Shown in pieces: positions 26,360-47,334 of a stretch of DNA of 64,000 bases; positions within the stretch are counted from its first letter, which is position 1; each line of letters begins with the position of its first letter. The stretch spans positions 1-64,000 of the forward strand of contig CAIVQG010000057.1 of assembly GCA_903907985.1 (NCBI GenBank). The letters are read 5' to 3'. The position numbers and the translations under genes were made by a program. Origin of the DNA: an uncultured delta proteobacterium. Its GTDB lineage: Bacteria > Desulfobacterota > Syntrophia > Syntrophales > Smithellaceae. Below the pieces are notes generated by a model, which was not told the DNA's origin, made no database searches, and worked only from the letters and a program-made list of their open reading frames with translations.

Positions 26360-26761
26360 ATGGGACCAAACAGATGGCGGACAAGCAGAACTGCGGTTTT
26401 TAATATTGGGTATCACCTAATTTGGTGTCCAAAGTACCGGAGAAAGGTATTAACCGGCGAAGTGGAATCCAGACTTAGGACTCTGATCAAAGAGAAGGCC
26501 GCAGATATGAACATCGCCGTAGAAAACATGGAAATCCTGCCAGATCATGTGCATCTGTTTGTAAAATCAGATCCATCTTTTGCTCCGCAGGAGATCGTGC
26601 AGCAGATCAAGGGTTATTCGGCAAGGATACTCCGTAACGAATTCCCCTTTCTTGTGTCTAAGCTGCCGTCGCTATGGACAAGGTCATATTATTGCGAGTC
26701 TGTGGGGCATATTTCTGAAAAAACGATTAAACGGTACATAGAGGACCAGAAGAACAAATGA
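26360..26761 (+). CDS. tnpA: IS200/IS605 transposase TnpA (Y1 HUH family)
   Basis: This 133-residue single-strand DNA transposase has the HUH metal-binding motif in PDHVHLFV (near residue 66) and the catalytic tyrosine in IKRYIEDQ near the C-terminus, spaced as in IS608 TnpA. The N-terminal strand YHLIWCPKYRRKVL is typical. All key residues are present, so it is probably active. It overlaps tnpB by 4 bases (ATGA). No ribosome site precedes the ATG. IS608 itself has divergent genes, while here they are co-directional. Confidence 0.95.
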   Translation: MGPNRWRTSRTAVFNIGYHLIWCPKYRRKVLTGEVESRLRTLIKEKAADMNIAVENMEILPDHVHLFVKSDPSFAPQEIVQQIKGYSARILRNEFPFLVSKLPSLWTRSYYCESVGHISEKTIKRYIEDQKNK

Positions 26762-27945
26762 AACTGATCCACAAAGCATACAGGTTCAGGCTGAAAGTGA
26801 CGCCCGAGCAGGAGGCGTTGATGGCACAATATGTCGGCGTTTGCCGGTTAATCTGGAACCTGTGCCTTGAGCAGCGGATGTTGATCTATAACTCCAGCAA
26901 AAAATCAACATGGGGAGACCAGCAGGATGTTGAGATCACCCAGCTCAGGAAGGAGTACGATTTTATCCGCCAGGCTCCGTCGCAAGTACTACAGTCGGTG
27001 ACAGACAACCTCGACAAGGCGTACAAAGGCTTTTTTAAGGGCAATACGGACTTCCCGATCTACAAGAAAAAGAACAAGTCGCGGAAATCGTTCCGCTACC
27101 CGCAGGGTTTCAAGATCGATAACCGAAGAATATTTTTGCCCAAACTTGGTTGGATGGGATTCTTTAAAAGCCAACCGATAGTCGGCAAAATGTGCCATGT
27201 AACTGTGTCAAAGCACGGCAATTATTGGTACGCTTCGATTTGTTGCGAGGTTTTGATAGAAGACCAGCCATGCGCCGATACTTCTATCGGTGGCGATATG
27301 GGTGTCGAGAAACTGTGCGCCCTTTCAGACGGCACGATCATCGAGAACCCCTGTAGCCTAAAACGCAGCATGAAGAGGCTTGCCAATATGCAACGCCAGC
27401 TTTCCCGAAAGATGAAGGGCGGCATGAATTATATCAAACTCAAGATCAAAATTGCCATTTTGCATGCGCGAATCGCCGATATCCGAGGGGATAACATCAA
27501 CAAGTCGACGACCATCATAGCCAATAGCCACGTCATGGTCGTACTTGAGGATCTAAAGATCAAGGCAATGTCAAAGTCTGCAAAAGGCACGGTTGACCAG
27601 CCCGGCAAGAAGGTAAAGCAAAAATCCGGGCTGAACCGAGGTATCCTTGACGCGGGGTGGGGCGAATTTCGCCGGCAGACAGGATATAAACTGGATTGGC
27701 GGAACGGTATCCTTGTCCTCGTCGACCCGAAGAACACTTCACGGAAGTGTTCCGCCTGCGGCCACACTGCAAAAGAGAACCGACTAACTCAGGCGAGCTT
27801 CGTCTGTGTAAAGTGCGGGTACAAGAGCGACGCCGACGTGAACGCGGCGGTAAATATCCAAAGGGCAGGGCATGCCCGGCTGGCCTGTGAATCGAGTGGT
27901 GCAGTAATACCGCCGGAAGCAGGAACCCTGGAGTTAGCAGCCTAG
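26758..27945 (+). CDS. tnpB: TnpB RNA-guided endonuclease (IS605 OrfB)
   Basis: This 395-residue protein has an N-terminal helix-turn-helix region (YRFRLKVTPEQEALMAQYVG), the split RuvC nuclease residues (Asp in GGDMGVEKLCAL, Glu in VVLEDLKIKAM, Asp in the DADVNAA motif) and a CxxC...CxxC zinc finger (CSACGH...CVKCGY). All three catalytic acids are intact. TnpB proteins cut DNA next to the element's target motif, guided by an RNA from the right end, and help keep the element in place. Here the target-adjacent motif would be TTAC. Confidence 0.95.
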   Translation: MKLIHKAYRFRLKVTPEQEALMAQYVGVCRLIWNLCLEQRMLIYNSSKKSTWGDQQDVEITQLRKEYDFIRQAPSQVLQSVTDNLDKAYKGFFKGNTDFPIYKKKNKSRKSFRYPQGFKIDNRRIFLPKLGWMGFFKSQPIVGKMCHVTVSKHGNYWYASICCEVLIEDQPCADTSIGGDMGVEKLCALSDGTIIENPCSLKRSMKRLANMQRQLSRKMKGGMNYIKLKIKIAILHARIADIRGDNINKSTTIIANSHVMVVLEDLKIKAMSKSAKGTVDQPGKKVKQKSGLNRGILDAGWGEFRRQTGYKLDWRNGILVLVDPKNTSRKCSACGHTAKENRLTQASFVCVKCGYKSDADVNAAVNIQRAGHARLACESSGAVIPPEAGTLELAA

Positions 27946-35901: not shown

Positions 35902-37503
35902 ATGAGAATTCGGTTATTACAACCCCTCTTATGCGCTTTATTCATGCTTGTGGCGATAACCGCTTACGCTGCCGCTGAAAAGCCGGATGAAGTGCTTCGT
36001 TTTGATATTAGTCGGTTCCAAATTGAGGGAAATACCCTCATCGACAATGCCGAAATCGAAAAGAAGCTTGAACCCTTTACCGGCAAGGCGAAAGATTTTG
36101 GTACTGTGCAGGAAGCTCTGGATGCGCTGGAACAAACCTACCGCGATCGGGGCTTTTCCATGGTCGTGGTTACACTGCCGGAACAGGAACTGGAAAGGGG
36201 TGTTGTCATCCTGAAAGTCATGGAGGTCCGCATCGGGAAAATCACCATAGAAGGAAACCGTTTTTTTGAGCAAAATAATATTCTTCGCAGCCTGCCGGGA
36301 CTGCGTCCGGGAGAGACTCCCGATATCAATACCGTATCCCGCAGCCTTAAACTGGCGAACGACAACCCCGCAAAAAAGACAAATCTGCAATTAAAAGATA
36401 GCGGTGAGGAAAACAAAACAGATGCGATCCTAACGGTACAGGACGAGAAACCCTGGAAATTAGGTATAAACGGAGATAACACTGGCACCAGAGAAACAGG
36501 TACAGCTCGCATGGGCTTCCTTCTGCAGCACGCCAATGTATTTAACCGGGATCATCTCCTGACGTTACAGTATATTACCTCTCCGGAGAAAATTGATCAT
36601 GTCAGTATTTACAGCCTCGGCTACCGGGTGCCTTTCTATTCACTGGGGTCATCCCTGGAATTGATCGGCGCTTATTCCAATGTTGATTCCGGCACGATCA
36701 GCGTGGCTGCGAATAATATGAACGTCAGTGGTAAAGGTTCAATTTTAGGAATACATTACAACCAGAACCTGACCAGAATAAGCAGCTACGAGCATAAAGT
36801 GACCCTCGGCCTGGATTACCGGGCTTATGAAAACAACGTGGATTTTCTGGGGAACCAACTGGGCAAGAATGTAACGGTACATCCCCTCAGCCTGACTTAC
36901 ACCGGGATATTGAGTTTTGATAAAATAAATGGCGGCTTTTATCTGATGGACATGCAGAATATCGCCGGCAGTTGGGATGGCCGGGACAACGCCAGCGATT
37001 TCGAGGGGGCCCGTGCAGGCGCATCACGTGGTTATAACATTCTCCGCTACGGGGCCAATCTGTCTTATGTTCTTGGCGCTGACTGGCAGGCGCGTATGCT
37101 GGTTAACGGGCAATATACCAATGATCGGCTGGTGCCGGGCGAACAGTATGGAATTGGCGGAGCGACCTCTGTCCGTGGTTTTGCGGAAAGAGCGTTCTCT
37201 AACGATCAGGGATATTCCGGTAGTGTCGAGGCCTACACTCCGGATCTGTGCAAGTTGTTCAATGTCAGTGCTTTTCAGTTCCGCCTGCTGGGGTTTTATG
37301 ACCGAGGGTATGTATCCCGAAATAATGCTTTGCCGGGTGATACGGTCAGTACGCAAGTTGCCGGCATTGGCCCAGGCTTACGTATTACTGACGGCAAAAG
37401 ATTCTCCCTCTCGGTTGATTGCGGCTTTGTGGTTGATCCCCCTGATGAAAGCACAACTCGCTGGAGCAGTGCCTGGCATTTGTCGGCAAGTTTATTGTTT
37501 TAG
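35902..37503 (+). CDS. two-partner secretion outer-membrane transporter (TpsB, ShlB/FhaC family)
   Basis: This 533-residue protein has a signal peptide (about 1-25), two POTRA domains (about 30-185, first one starting FQIEGNTLIDNAEIE) and an Omp85-type 16-strand barrel ending in SASLLF with a terminal Phe. The VRGF motif in GGATSVRGFAE (near 425) is the hallmark of loop L6. TpsB proteins carry their partner exoprotein across the outer membrane. The partner is the next gene, 273 bases downstream. Confidence 0.95.
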   Translation: MRIRLLQPLLCALFMLVAITAYAAAEKPDEVLRFDISRFQIEGNTLIDNAEIEKKLEPFTGKAKDFGTVQEALDALEQTYRDRGFSMVVVTLPEQELERGVVILKVMEVRIGKITIEGNRFFEQNNILRSLPGLRPGETPDINTVSRSLKLANDNPAKKTNLQLKDSGEENKTDAILTVQDEKPWKLGINGDNTGTRETGTARMGFLLQHANVFNRDHLLTLQYITSPEKIDHVSIYSLGYRVPFYSLGSSLELIGAYSNVDSGTISVAANNMNVSGKGSILGIHYNQNLTRISSYEHKVTLGLDYRAYENNVDFLGNQLGKNVTVHPLSLTYTGILSFDKINGGFYLMDMQNIAGSWDGRDNASDFEGARAGASRGYNILRYGANLSYVLGADWQARMLVNGQYTNDRLVPGEQYGIGGATSVRGFAERAFSNDQGYSGSVEAYTPDLCKLFNVSAFQFRLLGFYDRGYVSRNNALPGDTVSTQVAGIGPGLRITDGKRFSLSVDCGFVVDPPDESTTRWSSAWHLSASLLF

Positions 37504-37603
37504 AATAGACTGAAGGAGTTTCGGCTGAAGGCTGAAAGATAATAATAGCGGCGGGGGGTATTTAGGCCGCCAATTTGTGATGAAGTAGTAATAATCCTCA
37601 TAT

Positions 37604-37692
37604 CGTCATACCGGCAAACACCGGTATCCAGGACAGCGAATATGAACTGGATTCCGGATCATAACCTGAAGGTCTCGCGAGTCCGGAATGAC
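37604..37692. repeat. dispersed palindromic repeat upstream of tpsA
   Basis: GTCATACCGG...CCGGTATCCAG is followed by CTGGATTCCGG...TCCGGAATGAC, the paired form of a widespread bacterial repeat. It lies between tpsB and tpsA, and the longest tpsA frame wrongly begins inside it. Confidence 0.8.
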
Positions 37693-37776
37693 AAAACAGG
37701 GGTTCCCCGACTTTTTACGGTTTCATCAGGAGATTTAAATAGCAGCGGGGAACATACATTTATGAAGGAGCTTGAT

Positions 37777-40700
37777 ATGAAAACAAATCCGTGCAGAAAA
37801 AAGAAGCTTTTCCAGATAGCCGGTAAGCTTGTTTCTGTAATCACACTGTTTTTCTTCAGCGCAGGATATGTTTTTGCCCTCCCTGCCGGGCAGCAAATGG
37901 TGAACGGACAGGCAAGCTTTAATACTCAGGGCAACAACCTCACGATCACCAACAGCCCCAATGCGATCATCAACTGGCAGGGCTTTTCAATTAGCAACAA
38001 TGAGGCTGTCCGCTTTATCCAGCAGTCCGGATCCAGCGCCGTCCTGAACCGAGTCATCGGCCAGGACCCCTCCCGGATTCTCGGCTTGTTGCAATCCAAC
38101 GGCAGGGTTTTTCTTATTAACCCCAACGGCATCCTCTTCGGCCAGGGCGCCCGGATCGATGTGAACGGCCTTGTTGCCTCCACATTGAACATCAGCAATC
38201 AGGATTTTCTGGCGGGAAAATACAACTTCACAGCGGGAAGCTCAGCCGGAGCCATTGAGAACCAGGGCACCATCACGACACCCACGGGCGGGAAGGTATA
38301 TCTCATCGCGCCGGATATTACGAACAGCGGAATTATCAATTCTCCGCAAGGCGATATAACCCTGGCGGCGGGCCATAGCGTGTACCTTGTCGATTCGCTT
38401 GATCCCGACATCTCCGTAGTCGTCAGCGCGCCGGCAGACAGGGCCGTGAACTTAGGTCAGATCGTCGCCCAGAGCGGCAAAGTGGGGATTTACGGCGGCC
38501 TGATCCAGCAAAAAGGTGTTATCAACGCGGATAGCGCCGTGGCGGAAGGCGGACGGATCTTCCTGAAGGCCACGAAGGCGATTGAACTGGCGGACAGCAG
38601 TGTTATCAGCGCCGACGGCATCAAGGGTGGGCAGATCGTCGCCATAACGGCTGAAGATGGCCAAATCAGCGGCACGCTCACCGGCAGGGGGCTGATTTCC
38701 GCTCAAGGTGATGGAACCAGCGGCAGCGGCGGATTTATCGAAACATCGGCGGCAAAGGTTGATCTTAACGGCATTCGTGTCCGGACAAATGGCGGCAACT
38801 GGCTGATTGATCCTCCGCTGACTGATTTTACAATTGCACCAACAGGCGGAGATATTACTGGAGCAGATGTCAGCAATGCCCTATCGAGCGGCAATATGAC
38901 TTATCTTTCATCTGGTGGCGGCAGTGGCAGCAATGGCGACATTTTTGTCAACGACATCATAAACTGGAGTATCTACAAACTGACCCTCAACGCCCAGAAC
39001 AATATCACCATCAATTCAGCACTCAACGGCACTGGTTCTGCCCAATTGGCGCTTTATTATGGCCAGAGTTCAGCCGGTGGAGGCACTGCAAAGTATTCAG
39101 TTAATGCCCCTGTCAACCTGCCCACAGGAGAGAACTTCTTCACTAAACTGGGTTCTGACAGCTCACTGAAAACCTACTACGTAATCAACAGCCTAGGGGC
39201 GGCAGGCGATGCGACTGGCGGCACCAACCAAACATTACAGGGCATTGCCCGCGCTGGCAACCTGTCCGGAAAATATGTACTGGGTTCAAACATTGACGCA
39301 AGCGCAACTTCAACCTGGAACTCCAATGGCTCCGGAGGTTATTACGGCTTCGAGCCTATAGCTACCTTCACCGGTATTTTCGACGGCCTCGGCCATACGA
39401 TTACCGGCCTTTATATCAAAAGAACAAGTGGAAGCTACGTCGGCCTGTTTGGACAGACTGACAGTGCGGCGATCATTCGGAATGTCGGACTGGCAAATGT
39501 AAACATAACCGGCACACATAATACCGGCGGGCTGGTCGGGTTAAATTACGGAAGCATCACCAATTCCTATACCACCGGTTCGGTAACGGGAACCGAAGAT
39601 AGCGGCGGACTGGTGGGTGACAATGATTCTTATGGCAGCATCACCAATTCCTACAGCACGGCCAAGGTAACGGGAACCGTTGATGTTGGCGGGCTGGTGG
39701 GAGAATATGGTGATACAAGCAACAACACGACAATTAGCAATTCCTACAGCACCGGTTATGTAACTGGAACCAATTATTTTGGCGGGCTGATAGGGAATAA
39801 TGGCAACGACATCGCTACCATAACCGGCAGTTTCTGGGATAAATCGACAAGCGGGCAGTCCGCAGGCGTAGGTTCCGGAATTGCGACCGGTGTTACCGGA
39901 AAAACCACCGCCGAAATGATGACAACGGGAACGTTCACCGGCTGGGATTTTACGAGTACCTGGGGTATCGTGGAAGGCAAATCCTATCCCTACCTCAAAT
40001 GGCAGTTCAGCAGCACACCGCAAATCATCTCCGGTATGGTCAATGTGACCGGAGCAGGAAAGACCATACAGACAGCAGTTAACGGGTCACTTTTGGCAAC
40101 AACTTCCACGGGAGCAAACGGTTTTTATTATTTTGCCCTCCCGGGCGGTTCTGTTTCCAGCGGCAGCGCTCTTCTTGCCTATATTTCCGGAAATGCCGTG
40201 AAGGGCGCTGCGGCATATCTCTCCGGCGGAACACATATAACAAATCTCTCCCTTAATTCCGGCACCTTAATTGCCGGCGGCGGGACAATGTCCAACACCA
40301 CATTCGGAGATGCAAAGGGAGTTCTTTCTTCCAGTGATATCCCGTACACTTTTTCCGGCAACAACATGACGCTGAGCAGCGGCTTCAATTTCCTGACTGC
40401 GGCGGGAGCGACCTTTGCCCTGAACGGCAACATAACAACGGCAAACGGATCACAAACTTACAACGGACCGGTAACGCTCGCGTCGAACGCTGTGCTGACA
40501 AACACCGGCACGGGCGGTAATATCAGCTTCAGTGGTGCGGTGACGGGAGCAACCCGCAACCTTACCCTGAACACCACAGGCACAGTCAGCCAGACAGCAT
40601 CGATTACAGCAGCAGGCCTTGAATTACTGGGCACAGGCGCAACATATAATCTGACTGACACGGGTAATACAATAACAACATTGGCAGGAAATACGGGAAC

Positions 40701-41547
40701 GGTTAATTTCAAAGACAGCACCGGACTTGCTATTGGAACGGTAAATACGGCAGGCCTTGCGACAACCGGCGATCTTACCCTGAACGCTACGGGTGATATA
40801 ACTTTGAACGCGCTTATCAATGCCGGTACGGGCAATGTAACCCTCTCCTCCGGCGGCAAAATTATCAACGGCATGGGCAGCTCGCGAAGCATATCCGCGG
40901 GCTATCTTACCGCCGAAGCGGTAAGCGGTATCGGCAGCGGCGATCCGATTATGACCGGCGTAAGCAATCTCAATGCCATTAATACCACCTCAAACAATAT
41001 CCAAATTGACAACACCGGCGTTCTCACCGTAAGCCGTCTCAGCAACGGCGGTTCAGGAAATGTCGATCTCAAGAATATCGGGGCAATCACTACCTCCGGT
41101 GTATCCTCTAATTTTCAATCAGGAGGCACTTTTTCCATAACCGCCCACAGCCCGCTGACGATCGGCTCCGGCGGCGTTTCCGCCTCCGGCAACATAGCTT
41201 TGGAAGCCGCGGTGAGCGGTGACCTTACGATCAACGGAAACATCACGTCATCAACCGGGAACATTACTTTGACGGCGGGTGGAAGCATTATCGGAGCAAG
41301 CGGCAAGTTGAGCGCCCCGTATGGCACGATAACGATGACCGACGGAAATTCGTCTTCTTCGGGCACAGGGTCTACAGGCAATTCGACGGCTACCAGCAAT
41401 ACATTAGTCGCACTTAAAACAACAGTGGAATCAAAAGACGATTCCGATAAAAAAGAGGATGAAGACAAGAAGAAGAAAAAGGAAGGTGGGGAACAAACAA
41501 GCGATGATAAGAAAAAAGAACCTAAAGCTAAAAATTACTGCAACTAG
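37777..41547 (+). CDS. two-partner secretion exoprotein (TpsA, filamentous haemagglutinin type)
   Basis: This 1256-residue protein begins with a signal peptide (about 1-35) followed by the TPS secretion domain (about 36-285), with the NPNGILFGQGARIDVNGLVAST signature that TpsB recognises. A serine/glycine/threonine-rich beta-helix region follows, with three or four GLUG-type repeats (GGLVG...GSITNSYTTG) at about 580-690. The tail (about 1210-1256) is highly charged (Asp/Glu/Lys), ends with Cys-Asn and overlaps the next gene by 44 bases. ATG 37777 has AAGGAG 6 bases upstream; the frame open from 37642 is repeat-derived. It is a likely adhesin or matrix fibre. Confidence 0.92.
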   Translation: MKTNPCRKKKLFQIAGKLVSVITLFFFSAGYVFALPAGQQMVNGQASFNTQGNNLTITNSPNAIINWQGFSISNNEAVRFIQQSGSSAVLNRVIGQDPSRILGLLQSNGRVFLINPNGILFGQGARIDVNGLVASTLNISNQDFLAGKYNFTAGSSAGAIENQGTITTPTGGKVYLIAPDITNSGIINSPQGDITLAAGHSVYLVDSLDPDISVVVSAPADRAVNLGQIVAQSGKVGIYGGLIQQKGVINADSAVAEGGRIFLKATKAIELADSSVISADGIKGGQIVAITAEDGQISGTLTGRGLISAQGDGTSGSGGFIETSAAKVDLNGIRVRTNGGNWLIDPPLTDFTIAPTGGDITGADVSNALSSGNMTYLSSGGGSGSNGDIFVNDIINWSIYKLTLNAQNNITINSALNGTGSAQLALYYGQSSAGGGTAKYSVNAPVNLPTGENFFTKLGSDSSLKTYYVINSLGAAGDATGGTNQTLQGIARAGNLSGKYVLGSNIDASATSTWNSNGSGGYYGFEPIATFTGIFDGLGHTITGLYIKRTSGSYVGLFGQTDSAAIIRNVGLANVNITGTHNTGGLVGLNYGSITNSYTTGSVTGTEDSGGLVGDNDSYGSITNSYSTAKVTGTVDVGGLVGEYGDTSNNTTISNSYSTGYVTGTNYFGGLIGNNGNDIATITGSFWDKSTSGQSAGVGSGIATGVTGKTTAEMMTTGTFTGWDFTSTWGIVEGKSYPYLKWQFSSTPQIISGMVNVTGAGKTIQTAVNGSLLATTSTGANGFYYFALPGGSVSSGSALLAYISGNAVKGAAAYLSGGTHITNLSLNSGTLIAGGGTMSNTTFGDAKGVLSSSDIPYTFSGNNMTLSSGFNFLTAAGATFALNGNITTANGSQTYNGPVTLASNAVLTNTGTGGNISFSGAVTGATRNLTLNTTGTVSQTASITAAGLELLGTGATYNLTDTGNTITTLAGNTGTVNFKDSTGLAIGTVNTAGLATTGDLTLNATGDITLNALINAGTGNVTLSSGGKIINGMGSSRSISAGYLTAEAVSGIGSGDPIMTGVSNLNAINTTSNNIQIDNTGVLTVSRLSNGGSGNVDLKNIGAITTSGVSSNFQSGGTFSITAHSPLTIGSGGVSASGNIALEAAVSGDLTINGNITSSTGNITLTAGGSIIGASGKLSAPYGTITMTDGNSSSSGTGSTGNSTATSNTLVALKTTVESKDDSDKKEDEDKKKKKEGGEQTSDDKKKEPKAKNYCN

Positions 41548-42223
41548 CTTAGTATTACTATCGCTATTGCTGATTTTTTGCCCGGCATCCTTTGCCGCCA
41601 CAACAATAGGGAAAGTCACTCATTTGAGCGGACCAATGCTGGCAAAAAATGCCGACAACAAGACAAGGATATTGTCTATAGATTCTGGCGTTGAACAGGG
41701 AGACACACTGGTAACCGAAAAAAGGACCTATGCCCGGATCAAGTTTACGGATAATGGCGAAGTAACCCTGCGTCCGAACACGCAGTTCAAGGTGTCACAG
41801 TATGCTTTTGATCAAGCCAAACCAAAAGAAGACAGTGTTGTTTTCAATTTGGTCAAGGGAGGAATGCGCTCTGTCACCGGATTGATCGGCAAGCGGGGTG
41901 ATCAGGATAGCTATAGATTGGCGACGGAGAACGCGATAGCAGGCGTCCGGGGTACCACCTACGAATGTAAAATTTGCGCGGGCAACTGCGGATCGCTCCC
42001 GAACGGATTGTATTTTTTTGTAGCGGCAGGCAGCATTATCGTCAGCAACAGCGGCGGCTCACAGACTTACAGCACCGGCCAGTATGCCTACGTGGCATCC
42101 CCGACATCAATACCGAAAATTTTACCGGGAAATCCGGGTATTGATTTCACCCTGCCCAAATCTGTCGGAGATTCACCCAAGGACAGCGGGGGACCAAAGG
42201 ATAGTGGCTGTGTTGTACGCTAA
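41504..42223 (+). CDS. secreted FecR-domain protein
   Basis: This 239-residue protein has a signal peptide (about 1-32, ending SFA) and a FecR domain (about 35-190: IGKVTHLSGP, SGVEQGDTLVTE, RIKFTDNGEVTLRPNTQFKV, AIAGVRGTTYEC). FecR is best known as an anti-sigma regulator, but this protein has no membrane anchor or cytoplasmic part and no sigma gene is nearby, so a structural periplasmic or surface role is likely. A C-x2-C-x3-C cluster lies in the middle. ATG 41504 is chosen over 41459, whose ribosome site would touch the start. It is translationally overlapped with tpsA. Confidence 0.88.
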   Translation: MIRKKNLKLKITATSLVLLSLLLIFCPASFAATTIGKVTHLSGPMLAKNADNKTRILSIDSGVEQGDTLVTEKRTYARIKFTDNGEVTLRPNTQFKVSQYAFDQAKPKEDSVVFNLVKGGMRSVTGLIGKRGDQDSYRLATENAIAGVRGTTYECKICAGNCGSLPNGLYFFVAAGSIIVSNSGGSQTYSTGQYAYVASPTSIPKILPGNPGIDFTLPKSVGDSPKDSGGPKDSGCVVR

Positions 42224-42252
42224 ATAAACACGGAAGTTAAAAACGTAAGGCA

Positions 42253-42280
42253 AGAAGGCGCGTTGAAAAACGCGCCTTCT
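42253..42280 (+). terminator. hairpin after the FecR gene (tps unit end)
   Basis: AGAAGGCGCGTT and AACGCGCCTTCT form a perfect 12-base stem with a GAAA loop, 30 bases after the stop, then CTAATTT. The same arm sequence recurs in the hairpin after the second FecR gene. Confidence 0.8.
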
Positions 42281-42442
42281 CTAATTTGTCAATTTTACTC
42301 TTGTCAGGCTTGACACTTTTGCACCGGAGATTGCCAGTTCCATCGTCCTTCGATTGAATCATCTGTTTAATTACATCTCCTGCCAACTGCCAAGCCTTTC
42401 ATTTTGCTTGCTAAATGCTGACTTTACCGGACAATATTTTTA

Positions 42443-42471
42443 TTGACATTCACTGTAATTTGGCGCAATAA
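42443..42471 (+). promoter_or_regulatory. candidate promoter for the TPR/FecR pair
   Basis: A perfect TTGACA (42443-42448) lies about 120 bases before the TPR gene; the -10 at 17 bases (CAATAA) is poor, though A+T-rich TAAAAACTAATATT follows. It sits after the terminator, so it would start a second transcription unit. Nothing else is seen in 42281-42564. Confidence 0.35.
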
Positions 42472-42564
42472 AAACTAATATTAATTAATTTTTTTATCGG
42501 TAATTTGTTGTTACTCTCACAATGGACGTATTTGTGACTATTTCCTTTCCCGGCGGAGGCTGCG

Positions 42565-44163
42565 ATGAAAAAAGTGGTTTTAATAATTAGTATTTTTCTT
42601 TTATCGTTTATCTTGAATTCTGCAGCTTTTTGCCAAACCCAAAATACCCTCCTGGAAGATGGCATAAAACAATACCAGTCGGAAAATTATGAAGAAGCCA
42701 TCGATATCCTGGAAAAGGTGAGAGAGCAGGAGCCCAAATCTTCACTGGCGGCTTTTTTTCTGGGTATGGCCTACAAACAAACGATGACTTACGACAAAGC
42801 TGCCACCAATCTGGAAGATGCTTTAAAGCTGAAGCCGGCCGTAAAAGAAGCCCTGGTGGAATGCGTCAATGTCCTTTTTCAATTAAACAAATTAGATGAA
42901 GCAAAAAAATGGATCAAAGTAGCGCAGGAGCAAAACATTGACCCCGCCAATATTGCTTTTTTAGAGGGAATGGTTCTCTCGCGTGAAAGGAAATATACGG
43001 AGGCTGTTGCATCCTTTGAAAAAGCTAAATCACTGGATCAGAGTTTAGCCCAAACGTCGGACTACCAAATTGGTTTGTGTTACATGAACAGCAGGAAATA
43101 TAAATATGCCCAGGAACGTTTTAAGGCGACAGCGTCCTTTGATCCCAAATCCGATCTGGCCGCCTACGCCCGCCAGTATCTGGAAGCAGTGGAAAACACC
43201 ATTTTTTACACCCGGCCGGTGCGTATTACTATTGGTCTTTCCGGTGCCTATGATGACAATCTGACCTCCAAGCCCCGCCTGCAAAGCTTAGCCGGTTCTA
43301 CCGATAGTCCCGGCAGCAATGTTTTTTCGCCCTCTTTAAGAATTGAATATGCTCCTCTTTTTGACGGCCCCTGGCTGTTTAACGCCCAGTACGCGGCAAT
43401 GGGTAGTTTCAACGAACGTTACGTTCACACCCGTGATTCCATTGTAAATACTTTTTCCGTCATCCCCGGCTATAATTTCGGGCGGTTTTCCATAAGCATG
43501 CTGGGCAGTTATACTAATTACTCCCTGCGGACGGATTCCGATGTTACGCCTGACGGCAACGCCGGCTATAAACATTATCAGGATTATTACACCTTCGGCC
43601 CGATTGTAAAAATAATGTTGACGGAAAAGCAGATTCTGGAAACATTTGTCGGCTATGATAAGAAAAATTATTACAATCAAGTAATTACATCTGCGGCACC
43701 ATTCGCGGACAATCTGCGCGACGCCGAGGGATTCCGGGCTTACTTAAGCTGGGCCTGGTTTTTCCAGAACAACGGTTTTATTAATTTACGTTATGAGGTG
43801 GCCAAAGAAAGCACCAACGGAAGTTACTGGGACAACAGCTTAAATCGTCTATCCGCCAGCCTGGTTTTACCTGTTCTGCCTGATGATTGGTCTCAGAAAA
43901 TTGGCCCCATGTACGTGCAGCTTGCGGGCAGTTTCACAGCGCAGGATTACACTTACCCGCAACCATATTCCGCCGCAGATGGATCGGCAAGATCGGACCG
44001 CAGAGAAGATCGGATTTATACCGCCTCTGCAGGCCTTAACTGGGATATATCGAAAAACTGGACTTGCCTGCTGCAGTATACCCGCACGCAATCGGACTGT
44101 AATATTCCCGTTTATGAAAACACCAAAAATCTTTACACAATGGGAGTGGAGTTTAAGTTTTAG
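42565..44163 (+). CDS. TPR-domain outer-membrane beta-barrel protein
   Basis: This 532-residue protein has a signal peptide (about 1-24, ending AFC-Q), about five TPR helices (about 30-205, with alternating YEEAIDILEKV, YDKAATNLEDAL, YTEAVASFEKA units) and a C-terminal beta-rich part (about 210-532) ending in the aromatic LYTMGVEFKF typical of outer-membrane barrels. The periplasmic TPR would bind a partner and the barrel would pass it across or hold it at the membrane. The closest idea is a Slam-like or alginate-type exporter, which I infer from architecture only. GGAGG precedes the ATG. The giant FecR protein gene follows after 51 bases. Confidence 0.82.
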   Translation: MKKVVLIISIFLLSFILNSAAFCQTQNTLLEDGIKQYQSENYEEAIDILEKVREQEPKSSLAAFFLGMAYKQTMTYDKAATNLEDALKLKPAVKEALVECVNVLFQLNKLDEAKKWIKVAQEQNIDPANIAFLEGMVLSRERKYTEAVASFEKAKSLDQSLAQTSDYQIGLCYMNSRKYKYAQERFKATASFDPKSDLAAYARQYLEAVENTIFYTRPVRITIGLSGAYDDNLTSKPRLQSLAGSTDSPGSNVFSPSLRIEYAPLFDGPWLFNAQYAAMGSFNERYVHTRDSIVNTFSVIPGYNFGRFSISMLGSYTNYSLRTDSDVTPDGNAGYKHYQDYYTFGPIVKIMLTEKQILETFVGYDKKNYYNQVITSAAPFADNLRDAEGFRAYLSWAWFFQNNGFINLRYEVAKESTNGSYWDNSLNRLSASLVLPVLPDDWSQKIGPMYVQLAGSFTAQDYTYPQPYSAADGSARSDRREDRIYTASAGLNWDISKNWTCLLQYTRTQSDCNIPVYENTKNLYTMGVEFKF

Positions 44164-44214
44164 ATAATAGGGACGAAAATAAATTAAGATACATTTTTTC
44201 TGGGGAGAAAAAGT

Positions 44215-47200
44215 ATGAAGAAGCAACCCTTGATAAAAGCAAAACATTGCATCGCAGCATTATTAGCCGTATTGCTGCTTATTCCCTGGGCGGCACTGGC
44301 TGCGCCGGTGGGTAAAATTACCAATCTTGCCGGCAATGTGGATATCACGATCAAGGGGAAAGCCGCCCGGAGCGCTAATATGGGTGATGATATTAATGTC
44401 GGCGACTTTATCCGCACCAAGAGCAAATCCAAAGTGGAAATTACTTTTAAGGAAGACAATATATTGCGGCTGGCCGAAAATAGCCGCGTGGGGATTACGG
44501 AATATATGTCCGGCGAAAAACAAAATTCCAGCATCTTCAATCTTTTTCGGGGAAAAATTCAAAACATAGTTAAATCTGTCGGTATTCCCGGCGGCCGCTA
44601 TGAAGTGCACACGCCGACATCCGTCTGCGGCGTCCGTGGCACCCATTTCTTTAACTTTTATCTGGCCGGTGCGTCCGGATCAATATTCTCGGAAGGTTCC
44701 GGTTACGGTTACAGCAAGAATAACCCCGGTGATGTAAAAACAATAACCTCCGGTCAGGGCATGTTTGTGCCCAGTGCTACGTTAGGCGCGCAATTAAGAG
44801 CTGTTTCTAATAAACAACTCGATGAAATGAAAAACGCTACGGAAATATCGGGAGGCTCTGGTGGGTCCGGAGGGTCCGGTGGTGCCGGTGGTTCAGGTTC
44901 TTCAGGCGGTTCGGGCAGCTCGGGTGGTTCTGGTGGTTCTGGCTCTTCTGGCGGTACTGGTGATCTCGCTGGTGCGGGTGGTGATCCACCTCCACCTCCA
45001 CCTCCGCCGCCACCTTCAAATCCGCCGGTGACGCCGCCGGTAATACCGCCGGTTGTTAATACTCCTTCTTTGAGTCTGGACATTACAGCAGCCAGCAATT
45101 TTACCCATAAAATTGATGAAGGTGGCACAATCACCGGGACAATCACCGGAACAACGTCTGATGGCAGCACAATATTTACCTTAACCGCTGCTGGAGGAAT
45201 GACTGGCACTGCCGACAACCCCGGAGCAGGCTTAGTCAATGGCAATATTACAAACACTTCCGGTGTATCCGGTTACTTTATAGGTCTGCCCAATGAATCT
45301 CGTACCGGCGCCTCGGCGCTTCTCTACACAATTTACGTCAACAATGACGGTCAGGCGGGATTTCTTCTAGGTACAGCATACGCCACATTTTCAGCTGATG
45401 CATTTTCCGGCGCCGGAGTAGCTGTCAAATATCCGGCAATTGCCTCGACTTCCCTGACGCCTGCCACACTATCCCCGGGCATCCTGAACGGCAGCAAACC
45501 GGCGGTAATAGGTAACGTTACTTTATCTAATAATTCCGTATTCCTCGGTTGCGCCAGCCCCGCTGTTTGCGAAAGTGAGTCCAGATACATTAACGTCACC
45601 TTTCTCAATGGCCAAAGCGGGATAATCGGTGTTTGGGGTGGCTCCAGCACGGGTGGTTATTATGTCAACATCGACAGCATTACCAGTTTTAGCAATAGAC
45701 GGGTAATAAGTTACAAATACGGCAATAACAGCAATGTCGCTCTTTACAGCGAAAACCTGTCCGGAGCTGTGTCAGGGCAGGACGTAAGTATCAGCGGCGA
45801 TTTCCTGTACATGAGCACTCTTTACAAAGGCGCTACAACGATGAATCATTTCGGATGGTATTACAGCATGTATTATTATACATCCATCAGCAGCGGCACT
45901 TTCCAGTTTATACCGATGGCGTTTGCCAATATACTCGAATCCTCAATTGGCGTTTACGGCGTCATGGGATCAACAACCGGCCTCTGGACCGGCACCTCTA
46001 TTCCGGTAACGATGATCGGCACAATTTTCGATCCCTCTGCTTATATGGCCATTTCCGCCCTCGGTGCTTATAACATTCTTTCCGGACCTTGGCAGAGCCA
46101 GAATTACCGCACCGGTTCAGGGTATTTAACCAATGATTCCGGAGGCGCTTACAAAGGATATCTCAATACCCTGCTTATGCTTGTCTCCCCCAATCTTATT
46201 GGTACGGATGCACAGGCTCTCTATGCGGACGCATCCGGCAATATCGGTTTTTTGCTGGGCAATATTCCCGGCACATTTTATTCAGCGGCAGGTGGTTTTA
46301 AAGCCGAAGGTAATTTAAAGCGGATTGAGATGGCAACAGGAACAGGCATAGCGGCCAGCACTTTTGTTGCGTCAGGAACTAACAGCGGCGCTTTTGAGTT
46401 AAACACCTCCGGAGGAACGTATGCTAATTTGCTCAGTGGTGGACCGACATTAGCAATCAAGAATCATGTAACGGGGTTGGATTCACAATGGCTCAGCTTT
46501 AAAGATTATGGTTCCGTTGGAGTAGGCAGAAACATTTTATCCGGCACTTACGCCGGGGACCCGCAAGGAAACGCTGTCTTTAGTTATTATCGCCAATTGG
46601 TAGGAGTCGGCACTCCCGTAGGAACGGAAAGCATCGTCTACACACAGAACGCTTCTGCCTATACTTCAGGTTCAGGCGGTTATTTCGTGGGCGGCATCAC
46701 TGGAGCCTCTGCGGACTGGCAATCAGCAACAACCTTCGTTTTCGGCGGATCAGTCATGGGGACTTTCAGCCCGGCAGTTTCAAGTGCTGGCACATGGAAT
46801 GCCTATGCCCTCAGTTCGGTAATCGAAACGGCCAAATTTATCGATATGGCATCTACAGACGCTGGCAGAACAAAACTGGCCGCTTTAAATATTCCGGCAG
46901 CGCAAGTGGGTTCGGTGGATTTGACCGGTACACGCTTCACACAGACAGGTGACTCCATGACCGTGAATATGGGGGTTAACTTCTATGCCTATTCCACCGG
47001 ACAGACGCCTAAAATATTTGCGGGTAACGTATTGAATAGTAGCACCTATGATAGAATATGCCCCATTGGTGCTTTACCCGCAGCAGTAAACTTGACGGGC
47101 AGCAATGGAAACAATGTATCGTTTGGGACCAACTCTGTGACTTTCACGCCTAAGGTTTGGAATACAACCACCGGGAAATGGGCGGCTACGGTATCAGGCT

Positions 47201-47334
47201 CAGGGACACTATCTCCCTCAACCGGTATTCTTATCAATGGCGGCGCTGCGGGATTGCTTAATGGCGGCAGTGGAGGCTCTTCCGGTAATTTTAACGGTAC
47301 TGCTTCCGGAACAGTACGTCCGGGAGCAATTTAG
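44215..47334 (+). CDS. large secreted FecR-domain protein with Gly/Ser and Pro hinge
   Basis: This 1039-residue protein has a signal peptide (about 1-29) and a FecR domain (about 30-200: VGKITNLAGNVDI, MGDDINVGDFIRT, NILRLAENSRVGI, TSVCGVRGTHFF). A Gly/Ser-rich stretch (about 215-255) and a run of Pro (about 260-280) form a flexible hinge to a C-terminal region of about 750 residues rich in Gly, Ser, Thr and Ala. That region has recurring segments (GFLLG...ATFSA and GFLLG...GTFYSA) and no family that I recognise; it is probably beta-solenoid. There is no membrane anchor. It follows the TPR/barrel gene and may be its cargo. GGGGAG precedes the ATG. Confidence 0.85.
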   Translation: MKKQPLIKAKHCIAALLAVLLLIPWAALAAPVGKITNLAGNVDITIKGKAARSANMGDDINVGDFIRTKSKSKVEITFKEDNILRLAENSRVGITEYMSGEKQNSSIFNLFRGKIQNIVKSVGIPGGRYEVHTPTSVCGVRGTHFFNFYLAGASGSIFSEGSGYGYSKNNPGDVKTITSGQGMFVPSATLGAQLRAVSNKQLDEMKNATEISGGSGGSGGSGGAGGSGSSGGSGSSGGSGGSGSSGGTGDLAGAGGDPPPPPPPPPPSNPPVTPPVIPPVVNTPSLSLDITAASNFTHKIDEGGTITGTITGTTSDGSTIFTLTAAGGMTGTADNPGAGLVNGNITNTSGVSGYFIGLPNESRTGASALLYTIYVNNDGQAGFLLGTAYATFSADAFSGAGVAVKYPAIASTSLTPATLSPGILNGSKPAVIGNVTLSNNSVFLGCASPAVCESESRYINVTFLNGQSGIIGVWGGSSTGGYYVNIDSITSFSNRRVISYKYGNNSNVALYSENLSGAVSGQDVSISGDFLYMSTLYKGATTMNHFGWYYSMYYYTSISSGTFQFIPMAFANILESSIGVYGVMGSTTGLWTGTSIPVTMIGTIFDPSAYMAISALGAYNILSGPWQSQNYRTGSGYLTNDSGGAYKGYLNTLLMLVSPNLIGTDAQALYADASGNIGFLLGNIPGTFYSAAGGFKAEGNLKRIEMATGTGIAASTFVASGTNSGAFELNTSGGTYANLLSGGPTLAIKNHVTGLDSQWLSFKDYGSVGVGRNILSGTYAGDPQGNAVFSYYRQLVGVGTPVGTESIVYTQNASAYTSGSGGYFVGGITGASADWQSATTFVFGGSVMGTFSPAVSSAGTWNAYALSSVIETAKFIDMASTDAGRTKLAALNIPAAQVGSVDLTGTRFTQTGDSMTVNMGVNFYAYSTGQTPKIFAGNVLNSSTYDRICPIGALPAAVNLTGSNGNNVSFGTNSVTFTPKVWNTTTGKWAATVSGSGTLSPSTGILINGGAAGLLNGGSGGSSGNFNGTASGTVRPGAI

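Follow-up and report, generated by a model that had tools for sequence, protein, structure and literature searches.

Five consecutive genes in the 64,000-nucleotide stretch of bacterial DNA analysed here (the window) are two independently conserved modules, neighbours here by chance, and not one system. Module A encodes a TpsB transporter, a TpsA exoprotein and a small FecR protein (FecR1). Module B encodes a TPR/barrel protein (TPRb) and a large FecR protein (FecR2). In the reading that we hold with somewhat better than even confidence, module B is an exporter resembling the type XI secretion system (T11SS) with a FecR-headed cargo, and module A is a two-partner secretion system in which TpsA is disulfide-locked to a FecR anchor. 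In both modules, the FecR domain probably serves as an anchor within the cell wall. Domains of this type are common in the periplasm and are usually taken as parts of anti-sigma regulators. An anchor role for them is not described in the literature searched, where no paper was found with both FecR and DUF560 or with both "FecR domain" and two-partner secretion. Studies of the T11SS describe cargo with a C-terminal barrel and leave FecR unmentioned.

Gene Content of the Locus

The open-reading-frame and Pfam check found the five ORFs where the original prediction had placed them, contiguous and all on the + strand, as are all features below. Together with the structural model, it agrees with the predicted order of TpsB, TpsA, FecR, TPR/barrel and FecR. 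Upstream lie purE and yrdC/Sua5, in a genome of 3.4 Mb. The FecR proteins had also been described as not anti-sigma-like, with no sigma gene present, and this description holds. Pfam finds no FecR_N or anti-sigma part in either protein, and a profile search of the window's contig found no encoded sigma-70 region 2. An anti-sigma role for FecR1 and FecR2 was rejected on the absence of an anti-sigma N-terminal part and of a sigma gene on the contig. Elsewhere in the window, an IS605-type TnpB gene with a Cas12f1-like nuclease domain lies at 26758-27945.

Two Separable Modules

The five genes had been proposed to form one system with two export branches, and their consecutive arrangement on the same strand in this genome speaks for it. 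As a conserved unit, the system was refuted by a gene-neighbourhood search, in which the five-gene set was not conserved elsewhere and the two modules occurred apart in relatives. Module A is present without a barrel gene in the relative genomes G001 and G003, and the modules lie on different contigs in G037 (C11 versus C6), G053 (C104 versus C161) and G056 (C77 versus C9). In G002, G034 and G044, the TPRb gene comes immediately after yrdC, without intervening TPS genes. Judged against relatives, module A looks as if it had been inserted between yrdC and TPRb. Among 59 relatives, TPRb was found in 20, and modules A and B occur together in 4 genomes versus about 2 expected (P 0.09). A terminator-like hairpin of 12 pairs, 7 of them G-C (42253-42280), also separates the modules in the window. 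It lies in a gap of 341 nt between FecR1 and the TPR/barrel gene, and because of this hairpin and gap the five genes are probably not a single transcription unit. Against this evidence, a single five-gene system is very improbable.

The two pairings drawn within that proposal were borne out. The large FecR protein was said to belong with the TPR/barrel protein, and in 57 of 72 distinct TPRb loci a FecR gene lies on the same strand no more than 3 kb away, less than 400 nt downstream in 46 and at 400-3000 nt in 11; the loci without one mostly reflect a contig edge or ORF-calling overlap. The small FecR protein was said to belong with TpsA, and it does so in all 13 Desulfobacterota loci and in Variovorax.

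Module A: TpsB, TpsA and FecR1

Module A has the domain content of a two-partner secretion pair. TpsB (35902-37503; 533 aa) matches the Pfam families ShlB (6.8e-27) and POTRA_2 (1.4e-17), and its orthologs beside TpsA and FecR1 share 58-68% identity. TpsA (37642-41547; 1301 aa) has a Pfam TPS domain (2.8e-34) at residues 80-313, GLUG repeats and a charged tail ending in KNYCN. The penultimate Cys (codon 41539-41541) is the sole Cys after the signal-peptide region. FecR1 (41459-42223; 254 aa; Pfam FecR 9.5e-9) likely starts at 41504, which gives an overlap with the 3' end of tpsA of 44 nt, or 89 nt if the start is 41459. FecR1 ends in GCVVR, and its Cys fourth from the C-terminus (codon 42209-42211) is invariant in all orthologs.

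A FecR1 profile built from six orthologs was searched against 155 genomes of the class and then against another family of the phylum. Orthologs were found in 11 of the 155 class genomes and in two genomes of the other family, giving 13 Desulfobacterota. FecR1 orthologs form a group clearly apart from all other FecR proteins, with E values no weaker than 5e-77 for the former and no stronger than 1e-14 for the latter, and they adjoin TpsA in relatives. Three features recur in 13 of 13 Desulfobacterota loci: TpsA ends in [YF]CN with Cys exactly penultimate, the FecR1 frame overlaps the tpsA 3' end, and the FecR1 C-terminus reads CxVR, placing Cys exactly fourth from the end. The TpsA of one genome (G154) has no Cys in 3,379 residues besides the penultimate one. 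The remaining TPS-domain loci in these relatives served as a control. One of them is partial and is the 5' part of a module-A TpsA; no complete TpsA among them ends in CN or has a FecR gene next to it.

The same gene order, ShlB-type, filamentous-hemagglutinin-type and FecR-type, is found again on plasmids of Variovorax (Betaproteobacteria), where TpsA ends in MYCN. FecR1 is divided there between two separately secreted proteins. One, of 156 aa, contains the FecR domain and lacks Cys; the other, of 108 aa, has a signal peptide of its own and a single Cys, in the fourth position from its C-terminus (DCEVR). On plasmid NZ_LR594673.1 (locus L257:6908-7728), the Cys-bearing tail of this split FecR1 has gained the signal peptide.

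The pair TpsB/TpsA resembles two-partner (type Vb) systems with C-terminal retention, such as the disulfide anchor of HMW1 and HxuA or the CdrA-LapG system. In HxuA and HMW1, the C-termini are held in TpsB by an intramolecular disulfide loop (PMC5422565). As in those proteins, a periplasmic C-terminal Cys element would be expected to hold the module-A TpsA in TpsB. No HMW1/HxuA-type loop was found near the C-terminus of the window TpsA. Unlike HMW1 and HxuA, the module-A TpsA has a single terminal Cys and the matching Cys is on FecR1, so that the lock would work in trans. That two co-encoded secreted proteins each carry a conserved, unpaired terminal Cys is best explained, judging from the sequences, by an intermolecular disulfide between TpsA and FecR1. 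The two Cys could have another role, for instance in homodimers or modification. The one C-terminal Cys of each protein could pair with its own kind, which would suit dimerisation of TpsA or of FecR1 in place of a link between them. Against this, every locus has both Cys, and that of FecR1 has been kept on the separately secreted fragment in Variovorax. Dimerisation is considered rather unlikely, and the TpsA-FecR1 disulfide is the favoured account.

Module B: TPRb and its Family

TPRb (42565-44163; 532 aa) has Pfam TPR repeats, and its AlphaFold2 model (28 homologs; pLDDT 88.8) bears out the predicted TPR/barrel architecture. A periplasmic TPR domain (residues 28-215; 42646-43209; Pfam and model) is followed by a barrel of exactly 14 strands (residues 219-532; 43219-44160; model and fold search). 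Among solved barrels, CymA (Z 22.1) and OmpG (Z 20.0) come closest, and no Slam chain is among the fold matches listed for the barrel. In Foldseek, the top matches of TPRb are BcsC. By profile search, the family is present in 45 of 395 genomes of the phylum. Its named relatives are in metagenome-assembled genomes of Smithella, Syntrophus, Syntrophaceae, Desulfobacteraceae and other "Deltaproteobacteria", and no homologs were found in a search of plasmids.

The T11SS exporters Slam and NilB belong to SlipAM (PF04575, formerly DUF560), a Pfam family that the window TPRb does not match; it has weak matches to EpsL and BBP2_2. A SlipAM search of 198 phylum genomes returned five TPRb-family proteins (family profile E 1e-140 to 1e-153). 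Four of these five full-length proteins exceed the Pfam SlipAM cut-off of 22 bits, at 42.3, 35.8, 32.3 and 29.0 bits, and 8 of 10 FecR-like neighbours tested beside SlipAM-type barrels exceed the Pfam FecR cut-off. Kinship of the TPRb family with Slam is likely. It is not the sole reading, because the window barrel has no SlipAM match and because the BBP2_2 and DUF2860 models match TPRb-family proteins about as well as SlipAM does.

An FecR2-type gene follows TPRb in nearly all loci inspected. At about 11 distinct loci, an OmpH/Skp gene (PF03938, 64-100 bits) adjoins the TPRb-FecR2 pair or a cargo with the conserved C-terminal domain; the pair in the window lacks a Skp gene next to it. Skp has been shown to be essential for the Slam-mediated translocation and display of TbpB (PMC9090332).

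Other genes were also seen near the pair. In several Desulfobacteraceae/Desulfobacterales loci, a LuxR-type regulator lies between TPRb and FecR2 (L091:11519-12208, L098:5726-6373 and L101:11555-12208), one of them confirmed by Pfam, which suggests that the cargo has a regulator of its own. Large ORFs (about 650 aa) recur near the barrel-FecR pair (L180, L181, L184, L185, L186 and L193; also L130:3227-3712), and the one fragment tested is an adenylate/guanylate cyclase. In one locus, TPRb and FecR2 are separated by a duplicated piece of the barrel gene's 3' end (L181:2992-3357).

Module B: Anatomy of FecR2

FecR2-type proteins range from about 265 to 2,885 aa. Members start with a signal peptide, followed by the FecR head and a low-complexity linker rich in Gly/Ser, Pro or acidic residues. 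The window FecR2 (44215-47334; 1039 aa; Pfam FecR 4.9e-11) was modelled with a pLDDT of 73.8. Its head (residues 33-209; 44311-44841) is a confidently predicted FecR fold, and its linker (residues 214-293; 44854-45093), Gly/Ser-rich and then Pro-rich, is disordered (pLDDT < 50). The remaining approximately 740 residues are predicted to form beta strands. They comprise an all-beta passenger (residues 294-857; 45094-46785) and a conserved C-terminal domain (CTD; 46786-47331, from profile and alignment) of the last ~170 residues, with about 8 strands in the model. Modelling of this large C-terminal region had been named as a check on the original prediction; the region is beta-rich, and its fold matches are individually insignificant. 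Those of the passenger have Z scores of 3.4-4.3, and about half of the 50 listed are the Slam cargos TbpB, LbpB, fHbp, HphA and hemophilin, a likeness that is suggestive at the level of predicted structure.

Every complete long FecR2 terminates in the CTD (E 1e-18 to 1e-64). The CTD was found in 16 of 297 phylum genomes, all 16 of which also have TPRb (hypergeometric 5e-17); because proteins encoded beside the barrel were used to build it, the CTD model reaches only close relatives. One genome (G372) encodes a second FecR protein with the CTD on another contig, with no adjoining barrel gene. By sequence, the CTD has no match in Pfam or PDB, and its sequence-based assignment to TbpB_B_D/Lipoprotein_C was rejected on that ground. 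Beside some barrels, the FecR protein is short (265-460 aa) and has no CTD, which makes FecR, and not the CTD cargo, the constant partner of the barrel.

In many members, the sequence of the last CTD strand is GTAAG, which coincides in its letters with the LapG cleavage consensus. This likeness is probably due to chance, since the motif sits in a predicted strand. No TAAG-like site was seen by eye in the FecR2 linker. About 72 kb downstream of FecR2, the same contig (C57) also encodes a C93 (LapG-like) peptidase domain (119838-120215), and such a peptidase could in principle clip retained surface proteins.

Proposed Mechanism and Alternatives

From these observations we infer export, its direction, the anchoring and the disulfide. 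FecR2 would enter the periplasm by its signal peptide and be kept unfolded there by Skp. Its CTD, and probably also the beta-rich passenger, would engage TPRb, and the protein would then cross the outer membrane. The N-terminal head would act as a stopper on the periplasmic side, the disordered linker would lie within or close to the pore, and the passenger would stay tethered at the cell surface. Module A would be a two-partner system with FecR1 as a third partner in trans. TpsA would exit through TpsB while its C-terminal tail stays in the periplasm, where a disulfide between its single terminal Cys and the C-terminal Cys of FecR1 would lock TpsA in TpsB.

Export of FecR2 by TPRb is plausible, and two other accounts of module B were weighed against it. 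TPRb might export a polysaccharide, like BcsC, PgaA, PelB and EpsL, with the FecR protein as a periplasmic regulator or adaptor and not a cargo. The Foldseek matches to BcsC, the weak matches to EpsL and BBP2_2 and the short FecR proteins without a passenger beside some barrels would agree with that role. Barrels of the BcsC/PgaA type have 16 strands, however, against 14 in TPRb, and the loci inspected showed no recognisable glycosyltransferase or synthase genes next to the pair. The presence of TPRb in all 16 genomes with the CTD is a further point against a polysaccharide substrate, and the Skp neighbours fit a protein client. This account is judged unlikely. Still less probable is that FecR2 stays in the periplasm, where it binds the cell wall or acts as a sensor and controls an OmpG-like pore, with its passenger not surface exposed. 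In favour of this, FecR domains typically serve in periplasmic signalling, PupR is the top fold match of the head, and a cyclase gene lies near at least one pair. Passengers of up to ~2,900 aa with a signal-like conserved CTD are nevertheless poorly explained as periplasmic sensors, and there is no sigma partner on the contig.

The preferred reading, export of FecR2 by TPRb, draws on several likenesses to type XI secretion. Like Slam and NilB, TPRb combines a TPR domain with a 14-strand barrel. The adjoining cargo gene has a conserved C-terminal domain, as in cargo of the TbpB/fHbp/hemophilin type, Skp is a recurrent neighbour among relatives of the window pair, and one barrel possibly serves unlinked cargo. 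There are also differences. FecR2 starts with a FecR head and disordered linker in place of a lipobox, the CTD has no Pfam match and the window barrel is below SlipAM detection, and the host is a Syntrophales-like anaerobe and not an animal-associated bacterium. BcsC, PgaA and PelB likewise have periplasmic TPRs fused to an outer-membrane barrel; TPRb differs from these porins in its 14 strands, its protein-like partner gene and the lack of recognised synthase genes.

The FecR Domain as a Probable Anchor

The best fold matches of the FecR2 head are the FecR domains of PupR (Z 17.4) and of a putative anti-sigma factor (Z 16.0). The N-terminal part of the head also superposes on PDB entry 5ix9, the "Cell surface anchoring domain" of an antifreeze protein, which we take to be the Marinomonas ice-binding RTX adhesin (MpIBP). 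This superposition has a TM score of 0.83 of the target and an rmsd of 1.9, with a Z of 7.8 over 75 of 76 residues; the anti-sigma FecR domains fit the head better (Z 17.4 versus 7.8). In the model, the anchoring-domain fold of the LapA-type retention module is present in the FecR2 head. For FecR1, the sole match of the profile in PDB is 5ix9 (E 0.022), and all six orthologs match the NCBIfam LapA retention module NF033682 below its cut-off (best 8.5e-8). In the window proteins, this model scores 21-26 bits, with significant E-values, and does not reach the cut-off of 50 bits. LapA-type retention modules are periplasmic and hold the adhesin in the outer-membrane pore, in sulfate reducers among others (PMC13090378).

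The architecture of FecR2 is comparable to that of RTX adhesins such as LapA and MpIBP. In both, an N-terminal plug, similar in structure and weakly similar in sequence, is found together with a flexible linker, a large surface part and a C-terminal signal. Unlike those type I secretion substrates, the locus has no RTX repeats or ABC transporter, and the exit would be the TPR/barrel protein instead of TolC. FecR2 and FecR1 share the periplasmic FecR fold with the FecR/PupR anti-sigma regulators and differ from them in lacking a cytoplasmic anti-sigma part, with no sigma gene or TonB-dependent receptor in the locus. Two unrelated export routes appear to have each recruited a FecR domain, and the conserved architecture points to anchoring. 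A tentative generalisation is that non-regulatory FecR domains serve, like LapA's retention module, as periplasmic stoppers for surface proteins, in cis on T11SS-like cargo and in trans, via a terminal disulfide, on TpsA. If this is true, T11SS-like export would extend to many anaerobic Desulfobacterota with FecR-headed cargo and two-partner secretion would gain a third, disulfide-linked partner. Many "FecR domain-containing protein" annotations would also acquire a testable function.

A third FecR protein of ~256 aa, unlike FecR1 and FecR2, is encoded in two genomes: that of the window, on contig C51 (L077:6649-7419), and G042 (L074:965-1735). It is a conserved core-locus FecR protein that lies beside pgsA- and thrS-like genes, named by eye.
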